Positions 12,531 through 15,343 of a stretch of 64,000 nucleotides of DNA are shown piece by piece. The notes under the pieces were generated by a model. That model was not told where the DNA came from. It did no database searches and saw nothing but the letters and a program-made list of their open reading frames with translations. Made by a program: the position numbers and the translations under genes. The DNA is from Janthinobacterium lividum (GTDB lineage Bacteria > Pseudomonadota > Gammaproteobacteria > Burkholderiales > Burkholderiaceae_D). Position 1 is the stretch's first letter; each line of letters starts with the position of its first letter. The stretch is from contig NZ_CP075583.1 in the NCBI RefSeq assembly GCF_023509035.1, forward strand, positions 3,596,001-3,660,000, given 5' to 3'.

Positions 12531-12797
12531 TCAGCGCCAGACTTGCAGCAGCCGGCGCCACCAGCGCTGCGCTGGCGTGGCCCGTGCAGCGTGTTCGGCG
12601 CGGCCGGCCCGCTTGGCGCGATAGCTGGCCGCCGCCATTTGCAGGCCGATGCGGTCCATCGCCGCCATCGCCTCGGCTTCCTGCGGCGACAAGCCATGCA
12701 GCAAGGCTTGAGTACGGGGATCGAGCAGGAAGGCTGCACGCAGGGCGTCGTCCGTGTACAGCCTTGCCAAATAGGTTTCCAGTGCGGGGGAACTCAT
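12531..12797 (-). CDS. Small helical protein, likely partner of the DUF692 enzyme
   Basis: 88 aa, predicted all-helical: an N-terminal stretch (ALETYLARLYTDDALRAAFL) resembling the short recognition modules that accompany DUF692/MNIO genes, then an Arg-rich tail ending in WWRRLLQVWR. Its ATG overlaps the stop of the DUF692 gene (ATGA), so the two are translationally coupled. By analogy with MNIO partner proteins, which bind the substrate peptide for the oxidase, a substrate-recognition role is plausible. This is inference, as no family could be assigned with certainty. Confidence 0.6.
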   Translation of the reverse strand: MSSPALETYLARLYTDDALRAAFLLDPRTQALLHGLSPQEAEAMAAMDRIGLQMAAASYRAKRAGRAEHAARATPAQRWWRRLLQVWR

Positions 12798-13648
12798 GCG
12801 CTCCGCCCTGCGCGCAAGGCCGCGCGCGCCAATTCCAGTTGGCCCAGCACATGCTCGAACGACGGGTAATTGCCGTCGCGTTCGACGATCACCGTCAAGG
12901 GCTGGGGCGCATGGCGCGCCAGCACGGTCAATAAAGCGAAGACTGCGGGCGGCACGTCGTGCAGATGGTCGTCCAGCAGGCGCTGGCCGCCGCCAGGCGC
13001 AGCTATCCAGTGGCCGCCGCTCAGGTGCACGGCGCCGACCCGGTCCAGGGGAAAGCGCAGCAGCAGTTGTTCCGGATCGTGGCTAAAATTGACGGCATTC
13101 GCATACAGGTTGTGCAGGTCGAGCAGCAGTGGTACTTGCGCGCCGTCGACGATTTGCGTCAGCCATGCGGCTTCGTCCATCGTGCTGGCGGGCGGCTGGA
13201 CCAGGGTGGCGATGTTTTCCATCAGCGGCGCGCTGCCGACGATGCGCGTGGCCAGCGCGATATTGGCCACTGCGCCGCCGGCGCTCTGGGGCGTGCGCGG
13301 CGGCGCCGCCAGGTGGCCGATTTCGACGCAGCCGGCGCGCACGAAACTCAGGTGCTCTGACCACGATTCGGCTTGCACCTGCCGCATCAGGCGCGCCATC
13401 GCATGCAGCCGGTGCGGGTCGGCGGGAATCGTCGACGCCAGCCCCATGCCGACGCCGTGCAGGCTGACAGGCACCTGGCGCGCCAGCCTGCTCAAGGCCG
13501 CGATGCCGGCGCCCGAGGCGCGGTAGTAATCGTCGGCGATCACTTCCAGCACGTCGATGTGGGTCAGGTTGGACAGGATGCCGGCAGCCAGTTCGCCGCG
13601 CCAGCCCAGGCCGACCCGGTCGCGTGTGGCCCCCAGGCTAACTGCCAC
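12794..13648 (-). CDS. DUF692/MNIO-family multinuclear iron oxidase
   Basis: TIM-barrel enzyme of the DUF692 (MNIO) family. Characterised relatives (MbnB, TglH, ChrH) use two or three non-haem irons to modify Cys residues in peptides. Expected metal-ligand motifs are present: SLHGVGM, SEHLSF, LMENIA, LLLDLHN, AVHLSGGH and VERDGN. The usual AEN near the first ligand reads ADD here. I place the start at GTG 13648 (VAVSLGATRDRVGLGWR), giving 284 aa, the usual size. The frame upstream of that only repeats the neighbour's Gly/Cys tail in another frame. It overlaps the upstream gene by 11 nt and the downstream gene by 4 nt. Confidence 0.85.
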   Translation of the reverse strand: MAVSLGATRDRVGLGWRGELAAGILSNLTHIDVLEVIADDYYRASGAGIAALSRLARQVPVSLHGVGMGLASTIPADPHRLHAMARLMRQVQAESWSEHLSFVRAGCVEIGHLAAPPRTPQSAGGAVANIALATRIVGSAPLMENIATLVQPPASTMDEAAWLTQIVDGAQVPLLLDLHNLYANAVNFSHDPEQLLLRFPLDRVGAVHLSGGHWIAAPGGGQRLLDDHLHDVPPAVFALLTVLARHAPQPLTVIVERDGNYPSFEHVLGQLELARAALRAGRSA

Positions 13649-14555
13649 AGCCGCCGCCACCGCCGCAACCGCCGCAGCCGCTGCCGCACGAAGAGCCGCC
13701 GCCGTCGCCGCCCGAGGAAGAACCGCCCGAGTCGCCGGACGACGAGTCGCTGCCCGTGTTTTGCCGGGGTACCGGGTACAGCTCGGCGACATACGCGTAC
13801 ACCGACGGTGGCAGGGCGCCGATGCCGAAGATGGCGGCCAGCAGTGCCATGTCGGCGCTGCTGTTGCCCGCCTGCAGGCGCGTCGCGCGCATGTTCAGGC
13901 GGCCAAACAGCATGCGCAAGTCGGTCAGCAGGCGCTGCGCGCTCCAGCTGGTCGACTGGGTGCGCAAGCCGCGCAGCATGAGCAGGAATATCGCCAGCAG
14001 CAGCGCCAGGAACAGCAGGTTGTAGTGCTGGCGGCTGATGGCGATGACGGCCTTGACGGCGGCCACCGTCAGCAGCAGGTAGTGCGCGGCCCATGTGATG
14101 CGTTCGCGCCGGCGCAGCAGCGGCGGGCCGACCAGCAATTCCTGCTGCGTCAAGGTGTCCAGGTAGGCGCGGCACGATGGCAGCATCTCGGCCTGCACGG
14201 CCAGCTCCTTGCTGTGGCCCTGGCGGCCCAGGTACAGGCGCAGCACGTCGCGTTCGATGTCATGGCTGGCGAAGCGCAGGCTGTCGGCGCTGGCCGTTTC
14301 CAGCAGCGGGCCATCGGCGCGCAGCAAGCCGCGGTCGACCAGCACGATGGCGGCGATTTTCACGGCTTCGAGCGCGCCGCCGCGCAAGAAGGCGATGCGG
14401 TAGGGATCATCGGCCAGCGACAGCTGGGCGTGCGGATTGCGCAATTCCTGACGGATCAGCAGCTCGCGCACGCTGTAATACACAAGCACGCCGAAGAGCA
14501 GGTAGGCCAGCAGGAACCAGGGCCCGCTCCAGTCAAACGGATTGTAGCCGTTCAC
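13638..14555 (-). CDS. TIGR04222-like membrane protein with Gly/Ser/Cys-rich tail
   Basis: 305 aa from a GTG start with GGAG nine bases upstream. The order is a membrane helix (about 12-30), a soluble region with DDPYRIAFLRGG, resembling the TIGR04222 domain, two adjacent membrane helices (about 155-195), a further helix (about 238-255), then a roughly 35-residue tail of Ser, Gly and Asp ending in SCGSGCGGCGGGGGCGS. The four Cys are evenly spaced among Gly, and no other part of the protein is Cys-rich. The tail is the obvious candidate substrate for the overlapping DUF692 enzyme (inference). The start overlaps the stop of the nucleotidyltransferase gene (GTGA). Confidence 0.8.
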   Translation of the reverse strand: MNGYNPFDWSGPWFLLAYLLFGVLVYYSVRELLIRQELRNPHAQLSLADDPYRIAFLRGGALEAVKIAAIVLVDRGLLRADGPLLETASADSLRFASHDIERDVLRLYLGRQGHSKELAVQAEMLPSCRAYLDTLTQQELLVGPPLLRRRERITWAAHYLLLTVAAVKAVIAISRQHYNLLFLALLLAIFLLMLRGLRTQSTSWSAQRLLTDLRMLFGRLNMRATRLQAGNSSADMALLAAIFGIGALPPSVYAYVAELYPVPRQNTGSDSSSGDSGGSSSGGDGGGSSCGSGCGGCGGGGGCGS

Positions 14556-15280
14556 CGCATCGACTCCGCGTGTTCGCGCAAGCGCTCTGTAATCGTCATC
14601 AGACCCGTAAAGGCGGGCAGGGCCCGCCCCGGCGCCAGGCGCGCCGTTTCGCGCGCCGCCGACATGGCTTGCAGGGCCGCGTGCAGGGCTGGCTCGCCCA
14701 GCTGGTCGACAAACGCTTCGAGCGCCTGCTTGCCGGATAGCGCAGACTTGCCCTCCAGCTGCGCCAGCGACGCTGCGGCCGAGCGCAGCGGACCGGCTGC
14801 GTCGGCAATGGCGCCGGCCAGCTGTTCTTCATTCAGGCTCACTAGCATATACCGTTCGCGCATGCGCACCTGCTGGTTCAGCAGCACTTGCCGCAGCCGG
14901 CGCAGCACGGCGTCGCGGCTGGTGTGCAGGCTGGCGAAAGGGTCAAAGCCGTGCAGCACCTTGTGGCGCGCGATGATGTCGGCGAACTTGACGGCGAAGG
15001 CGTCGGCGGCCTGCGTCAATTCGCTCTCGAGCAGGAACATCACCTGTAAATCGATGGCGGCGTGCGCCAGGCGCAAGGGCCCGCGCAGCGCATCGGCCGC
15101 TGGCGGCGTAAAGCGCTTGAGCAGCAACAGCAGGTTGACGTCGGAGGTGGCGCGCACCTGGCCGTCTGCGGCCGAACCAAACAGCACGGCGGCGGCAAGG
15201 TCGGCGCCGAAGGTACTTTGCGCGGCGGCGACAAACACATCCAGGTGGCGTTGTATCTCTTCTGGCAGCGGTGGCGGCAT
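14552..15280 (-). CDS. Nucleotidyltransferase-domain protein with altered active site
   Basis: About 242 aa. The N-terminus has a nucleotidyltransferase fold motif, LFGSAADGQVRATSDVNLLLLL. The canonical pattern is GSx10DxD, but the second Asp is Asn here (SDVN), so catalysis may be lost or altered. The rest is helical and unassigned. The ATG at 15280 follows AAAGA. A GTG at 15295 adds five residues and is the alternative. It is the first gene of the four-gene overlapping operon, and a 30-bp palindrome lies 19-34 bp upstream. Confidence 0.7.
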   Translation of the reverse strand: MPPPLPEEIQRHLDVFVAAAQSTFGADLAAAVLFGSAADGQVRATSDVNLLLLLKRFTPPAADALRGPLRLAHAAIDLQVMFLLESELTQAADAFAVKFADIIARHKVLHGFDPFASLHTSRDAVLRRLRQVLLNQQVRMRERYMLVSLNEEQLAGAIADAAGPLRSAAASLAQLEGKSALSGKQALEAFVDQLGEPALHAALQAMSAARETARLAPGRALPAFTGLMTITERLREHAESMR

Positions 15281-15313
15281 GCGGTGTTCTTTCACGATGG
15301 GTTGGCGGGATGC

Positions 15314-15343
15314 GCATAAGTTTGCAATATAGCAAACTTATGC
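15314..15343 (-). promoter_or_regulatory. 30-bp perfect palindrome before the MNIO operon
   Basis: Arms GCATAAGTTTGC (15314-15325) and GCAAACTTATGC (15332-15343) are perfect inverse complements around the 6-nt AT-only centre AATATA. The repeat occupies most of the gap between serB and the nucleotidyltransferase gene. Its size and AT-rich core fit an operator for a dimeric repressor, perhaps overlapping a -10 element on the minus strand. Without a T-run it does not look like a terminator for serB. Confidence 0.65.

Follow-up and report, generated by a model that had tools for sequence, protein, structure and literature searches.

What does an MNIO oxidase modify when the gene overlapping it encodes an integral membrane protein and not a free peptide? 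The question arises in Janthinobacterium lividum, within a stretch of 64,000 nucleotides (the window; NZ_CP075583.1, positions 3,596,001 to 3,660,000 of the forward strand) of a genome that consists of one contig of 6.26 Mb. Four overlapping minus-strand genes lie there between serB (16260-15379) and a convergent gene of the beta-lactamase family (PF00144). A first-pass annotation of the letters had named the Cys-rich tail of the membrane protein as the best candidate substrate of this MNIO operon, and both the co-occurrence of the genes and the conservation of the tail cysteines support that choice. The reading favored here, with a probability of about 0.6, is a protein-maturation cassette in which the MNIO, together with a leader-like protein acting in trans, would oxidize the tail cysteines of the TIGR04222 membrane protein. 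Its central idea, an MNIO modifying the Cys/Gly tail of a TIGR04222 protein, is already in print: Antoine et al. 2025 (PMC12452194) proposed TIGR04222 proteins with Ser/Gly/Cys tails as MNIO substrates, a precedent that the first pass had missed. As far as our searches show, five points are new: a four-gene set that recurs, a partner of leader type, a pseudo-nucleotidyltransferase, the predicted cytoplasmic location of the tail, and an apparent exchange of the maturase. The cassette comprises the following features, in gene order and in window positions:

14552..15295, minus strand: nucleotidyltransferase-like (NTase-like) protein, 247 aa, first cassette gene; profiles point to an AadA-type fold, with DxN in place of the catalytic DxD
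13638..14555, minus strand: TIGR04222 membrane protein, 305 aa, GTG start, likely substrate; from the TIGR04222 match, an AlphaFold2 model, hydropathy and charge pattern
13641..13769, minus strand: disordered Ser/Gly/Cys tail of that protein (residues 263-305), predicted modification site; from sequence, low predicted local distance difference test (pLDDT) scores and conservation of C294
12794..13648, minus strand: MNIO (PF05114) enzyme, GTG start; from the PF05114 match and the TglH iron ligands
12531..12797, minus strand: small helical protein, 88 aa, probably a leader domain of the NHLP/Os1348/LigA type that lacks a core, and the predicted partner of the MNIO; from profile and fold matches and from MNIO fusions

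Re-reading the sequence bore out the genes, coordinates, overlaps, and four-Cys tail that had been reported for the locus. The TIGR04222 gene overlaps the NTase gene by 4 nt, the MNIO GTG (13648) sits within the last tail codons of the TIGR04222 gene (11 nt), and the MNIO and small-protein genes share another 4 nt. Fixed stoichiometry had been read from these overlaps; they do not support it and suggest translational coupling instead.

The gene set is conserved well beyond this genome. A genome collection was scanned with a five-sequence MNIO alignment, and the best 80 of 97 loci form the first set, to which all first-set counts refer; four of the five genomes that supplied the alignment are themselves in it (L075, L085, L086, and L090). 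The other three genes were sought with local iterative profiles and counted only where the flank sufficed. All four genes occur in 56 of 70 such loci, found by MNIO sequence. TIGR04222 lies upstream of the MNIO in 68/75 loci (67 within 135 nt, and L130 at 3.3 kb), the NTase is present in 58/71, and the small protein in 72/79. Outside Janthinobacterium, the corresponding counts are 54/61, 44/57, and 58/65, with all four genes in 42/56. Four-gene loci span Alpha-, Beta-, and Gammaproteobacteria, Acidobacteria, Chloroflexi, Planctomycetes, Verrucomicrobia, Myxococcales, Bdellovibrionales, Leptospirales, and FCPU426. Because the same gene order recurs across phyla, it is more than chance. In a family-level sample of 195 genomes from 44 genera, TIGR04222 relatives of the cassette kind occur in 17 genomes and 4 genera, one of the 17 (G176) matching by its tail only; the NTase occurs in 16 of the 195.

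A second sample was chosen by TIGR04222 and not by MNIO, from 199 genomes of the phylum of G589; this is probably Acidobacteriota, since it also holds G594, a Blastocatellia genome. TIGR04222 scored above cut-off in 11 of these genomes. Among the 11 stretches (L191 and L199 duplicate first-set loci), the local profile detected TIGR04222 in 10, L200 giving no local match; an MNIO adjoins it in 8, and the small domain is present in all 8. The NTase was found in just two of these eight (L191 and L193), despite at least 1.5 kb of upstream sequence. Since six of eight MNIO-linked loci lack it, the NTase is not essential: the firm core consists of MNIO, TIGR04222, and the small domain, to which the NTase is often added.

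The proposed substrate is a clear TIGR04222 family member (67.5 bits against a cut-off of 43), and its last residues read SSCGSGCGGCGGGGGCGS, with Cys at 290, 294, 297, and 303. In an AlphaFold2 model (pLDDT 88), a compact domain separates the first of three long hydrophobic helices from the second, and the tail is disordered, with pLDDT below 50 at residues 276-293 and 295-305; a Foldseek search with this model returned no usable known fold (all E >1). Within the tail, C294 is invariant in 57 rows, and Cys 290, the first tail Cys, is absent in 7 of 14 species loci within Janthinobacterium. Cys conservation in the tail had been proposed as a check on the substrate assignment, and MNIO-linked tails do keep their cysteines, with 3 to 8 (median 6) in the last 60 residues across 57 rows from 55 loci. 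This count includes three search-profile genomes (L075, L085, and L086) and one Janthinobacterium locus (L087), and leaves out the other 13 of the 14 Janthinobacterium loci, L134 (split frame), L094 (a fragment with 2 Cys), and the weak L148 frame. Two loci (L111:4076-5988 and L121:1384-3318) have TIGR04222 genes in tandem ahead of a single MNIO, and every copy carries a Cys tail.

A Cys/Gly tail might also work unmodified, in metal binding, redox chemistry, or membrane contact, with the MNIO acting on another site or protein. Several observations weigh on this side and against tail oxidation. Shorter Cys tails are often kept in TIGR04222 proteins that are not linked to an MNIO: the 12 unlinked proteins (the set leaves out L068, L070, and L072, at contig ends, and L059, a tail match only) hold 0 to 7 Cys in the last 60 residues, L190 being the high one. 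Some of these tails persist in genomes without a PF05114 match; a PF05114 gene was found elsewhere in 7 of 14 tested genomes holding unlinked TIGR04222 proteins. In G176, of the same family as J. lividum, a protein matching mainly by its tail (L059:5537-6538) carries SSCGSSCGGGCGGGCGS with no cassette beside it, and tails of the cassette kind may thus extend beyond TIGR04222. Conversely, the cassette tail is strongly linked to a family that includes Cys-oxidizing enzymes, linked tails carry more Cys, and the sole cassette-type locus without an MNIO has a maturase of another class. An unmodified tail is unlikely. Similar proteins of 183-185 aa overlap the start of the MNIO-unlinked TIGR04222 frames at L060, L061, and L065; the two that were scanned (L060 and L065) gave no Pfam match.

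At L190 in genome G675, the locus with the other maturase, the genes for an NTase and for a TIGR04222 protein with seven Cys are followed by two more (L190:1007-3849), which encode a TrkA/ion-channel protein and a radical SAM/SPASM protein. The radical SAM protein matches SbtM (TIGR04082) at 496.7 bits, above the cut-off of 350, the match covering the final 322 of the model's 516 positions, and PF05114 was not found in the G675 genome. SbtM thus stands, in one locus without an MNIO, beside an NTase and a Cys-tailed TIGR04222 protein, although its enzyme class is unrelated to MNIO and model positions before 195 have no match at L190. This one clear locus favors the tail as a substrate open to different maturases. 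Two further TIGR04222 loci from the phylum of the window (L066 and L067) also have radical SAM genes downstream; SbtM is the closest model for their products, which score 114 and 142 bits, well below the cut-off. That cut-off was passed in 2 of 297 genomes of G675's phylum, one of them G675 itself. No NTase, TIGR04222, or small protein was seen at the loci of this SbtM search, a negative of little weight, since their 1.5-kb flanks miss even the known TIGR04222 gene of G675. One such locus has an MNIO-like frame near the radical SAM gene (L214:2355-3350), with no cassette partner seen in the short flank.

Transmembrane (TM) helices of the TIGR04222 protein are predicted at about 12-38, 152-174, and 181-198; a further hydrophobic stretch near residue 245 forms only a short helix by model and hydropathy. 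Arg plus Lys per ten residues amounts to 0.39 before TM1, 1.87 after TM1, 1.94 before TM2, 1.95 in the short TM2-TM3 loop, and 2.41 after TM3. Because three TM helices and this charge pattern predict an N-out, C-in topology, which fits 49 of 57 rows by charge density, the tail is predicted to be cytoplasmic, contrary to the published location. The TIGR04222-MNIO clusters described in PMC12452194 share with the cassette a Cys/Ser/Gly-tailed membrane protein beside an MNIO and its proposed role as substrate, whereas the tail is predicted there to be periplasmic. Antoine et al. propose a tail that is modified yet exported, serving as a periplasmic, membrane-tethered, bufferin-like chelator. Besides the published topology prediction, the Sec signal peptides on bufferin precursors speak for this arrangement, but an Arg/Lys-poor N-terminus followed by basic residues and an odd number of TM helices argue for the opposite orientation, and a periplasmic tail appears doubtful to us, if less so than an unmodified one. 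The same paper describes many TIGR04222 proteins without MNIOs and places the TIGR04222 family mostly in Actinomycetota.

The enzyme expected to act on the tail belongs to the MNIO family, since PF05114 (MbnB_TglH_ChrH) matches at 204 bits against a cut-off of 25; the profile searches suggested in the first pass thus identify both this protein and its TIGR04222 neighbor. For TglH, PMC10880893 lists as ligands His71, His107, Glu151, Asp184, His216, and Glu258, together with Asn187, Asp229, and His231 for the third iron. Seven of the nine (Glu151 onward) align directly with identical residues in the window MNIO. His71 and His107 fall outside the TglH alignment, and their probable counterparts, in SLHG and SEHL, were identified by motif with the help of 3bww. 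Across an alignment of five cassette MNIOs, none of the nine positions varies, so that the earlier statement that most iron ligands are present was correct but understated. That annotation also noted ADD in place of AEN. The letters are there, the window MNIO reading IADDYYRA where 3bww reads IAPENWIK, but a change of the active site is rejected: the position is outside the published TglH ligand list and varies among the cassette MNIOs.

BufB (NF050167), the bufferin maturase, is the best NCBIfam model for all six MNIOs scanned, and each remains below its equivalog cut-off (174.1 bits against 310 for the window MNIO). Since the nearest characterized MNIO relatives are the bufferin and oxazolin maturases, the product would by analogy most likely be a 5-thiooxazole. 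The bufferin and oxazolin systems (BufA/B/C and HvfA/B/C) resemble the cassette in MNIO ligands, nearest NCBIfam models, and Cys substrates. They combine a signal-peptide precursor with a partner carrying DUF2063 and a recognition element (RRE) for ribosomally synthesized and post-translationally modified peptides (RiPPs), in place of which the cassette has a membrane protein and a domain of leader type. Outside the window, the J. lividum genome carries a bufferin operon as well (L001; G000:C1:5946032-5949814), with a DUF2282 precursor and an MNIO naturally fused to DUF2063.

The remaining core protein had been described simply as small and helical, a label that missed the identity of its domain. 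It looks like a RiPP leader domain of the NHLP/Os1348/LigA type without a conserved core. The window protein scores 23.6 bits against the Os1348/NHLP clan model (NF038399), below the curated cut-off of 40; across the family, 52 of 58 rows match this model at E ≤0.01 (best 3.7e-14), and the top fold matches are Os1348 and borosin domains. NGO1945 and TglI, which exemplify the DUF2063-like fold of PME-type 2 partners, are not on the list of fold matches, though their absence is no argument against such a fold. In the 58-row summary, the most conserved columns lie within residues 7-62 and none is Cys; no conserved column follows residue 62, where the core region of an NHLP RiPP precursor would be expected. 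Several copies stop a few residues after the domain, and in 9 of 79 loci the domain and the MNIO form a single fusion protein, for example at L096. As its gene also occupies the position where partner proteins sit, the small protein is probably the partner of the MNIO. A degenerate DUF2063 domain is an unsupported alternative identity: DUF2063 gave no match to the small protein in Pfam scans, and hhalign against a 15-row DUF2063 alignment returned a probability of 0.2, compared with 100 for a self-half control.

Membership in a presumed precursor family raises the opposite possibility, that the MNIO modifies the small protein as its RiPP precursor, and that TIGR04222 is an exporter or anchor whose tail is no substrate. 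Os1348-type proteins are thought to be precursors in Pseudomonas, and an NHLP-type precursor there belongs to a pathway with an MNIO-nitroreductase fusion. Yet the confinement of conservation to a Cys-free domain, the copies that end just past it, and the nine MNIO fusions are difficult to reconcile with a precursor, and conservation falls instead on the TIGR04222 Cys tails. We consider this quite improbable, the least credible of the alternatives. PosA/PflA and Os1348, the NHLP-type precursors of Pseudomonas, thus share with the cassette protein the kind of leader domain and a pathway that includes an MNIO domain. In PosA/PflA, a single chain holds both leader and core, and the MNIO comes as a fusion with a nitroreductase, whereas the leader-like domain of the cassette lacks a core. 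Borosins (SonA/SonM and OphMA) contain a similar small helical domain, which in OphMA has a recognition role and shares one chain with the enzyme. Borosin enzymes are methyltransferases and not iron oxidases, and the core remains attached.

Part of this arrangement may already have been glimpsed. PMC12452194 reports PME-type 2 partners for at least 10% of TIGR04222-MNIO clusters and defines adjamnio-V as very small proteins, without recognized homology, encoded after MNIO genes; adjamnio-V may include the cassette small protein. A word search of the main text of that article gave no occurrence of nucleotidyltransferase, NHLP, LigA, Nif11, or Os1348. Neither the four-gene set nor a leader-type partner was found in literature searches, whose coverage mostly excluded subscription papers.

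The first gene encodes the component least tightly tied to the set. NTase profile matches are weak (Polbeta 21.5 bits against a cut-off of 26.9), and the solved proteins that come closest by profile are AadA-type adenylyltransferases. In all 48 rows, DxN stands in place of the catalytic DxD, the first Asp being kept and the second being Asn. The presumed third carboxylate (position 82, our own assignment) is variable, while Glu92 and Asp106 are invariant in the same rows. The pattern of an active enzyme, GS...DxD with a third carboxylate, is therefore not found, and because the second catalytic Asp is Asn throughout, the protein is probably inactive. The term nucleotidyltransferase-like thus holds for the fold and not for an ordinary nucleotidyltransferase. 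The gene was also considered as a chance neighbor, which is rejected for the first set, since the NTase tracks TIGR04222: of the 64 loci that have TIGR04222 and 2 kb or more of upstream sequence, 58 carry the NTase, against 0 of 7 without TIGR04222.

Upstream of this gene lies one further feature:

15314..15343, strand not assigned: perfect inverted repeat around TTTGCTATATTGCAAA, between serB and the cassette, promoter-like (putative extended -10)

The TTTGCTATATTGCAAA core is common to 12 of 14 other Janthinobacterium loci, the full inverted repeat to few. Given this promoter-like, conserved core, the cassette may have its own promoter. No fifth conserved gene appeared in more than 4 of the loci compared, a comparison that left out 13 of 14 Janthinobacterium loci and seven outgroup loci. 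TrkA/ion-channel proteins are encoded upstream of the cassette in L102, L093, and L097 (the last by similarity only) and downstream in L190. PHROGs gave no match at E <0.05.

Taken as a mechanism, the favored maturation cassette would operate in the cytoplasm, where the small leader-like protein would activate the MNIO in trans and steer it to cysteines in the flexible C-terminal tail of the TIGR04222 protein. The resulting membrane-anchored tail may bind a soft metal such as copper, and the NTase-like protein would be an accessory, often present and probably non-catalytic. A broader evolutionary account, which we advance tentatively and would rate as possible, is that a RiPP leader became detached from its substrate and now serves as a standing enzyme subunit, either as a separate chain acting in trans or joined to the MNIO. 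The oxidase (MNIO or SbtM-type) would then be exchangeable, and a pseudo-NTase would be an optional helper.

MNIO enzymes are known from peptide natural products. If the proposed reading is true, a cassette that spans many phyla and modifies a resident membrane protein would move MNIO chemistry into ordinary cell physiology, perhaps metal handling, and would represent cellular protein maturation derived from natural-product chemistry. Leader-enzyme fusions have been built by chemists, and the core-less leader domain would be their natural counterpart. The cassette would thereby also offer a simple two-component enzyme to oxidize a Gly/Cys tag on a chosen protein.

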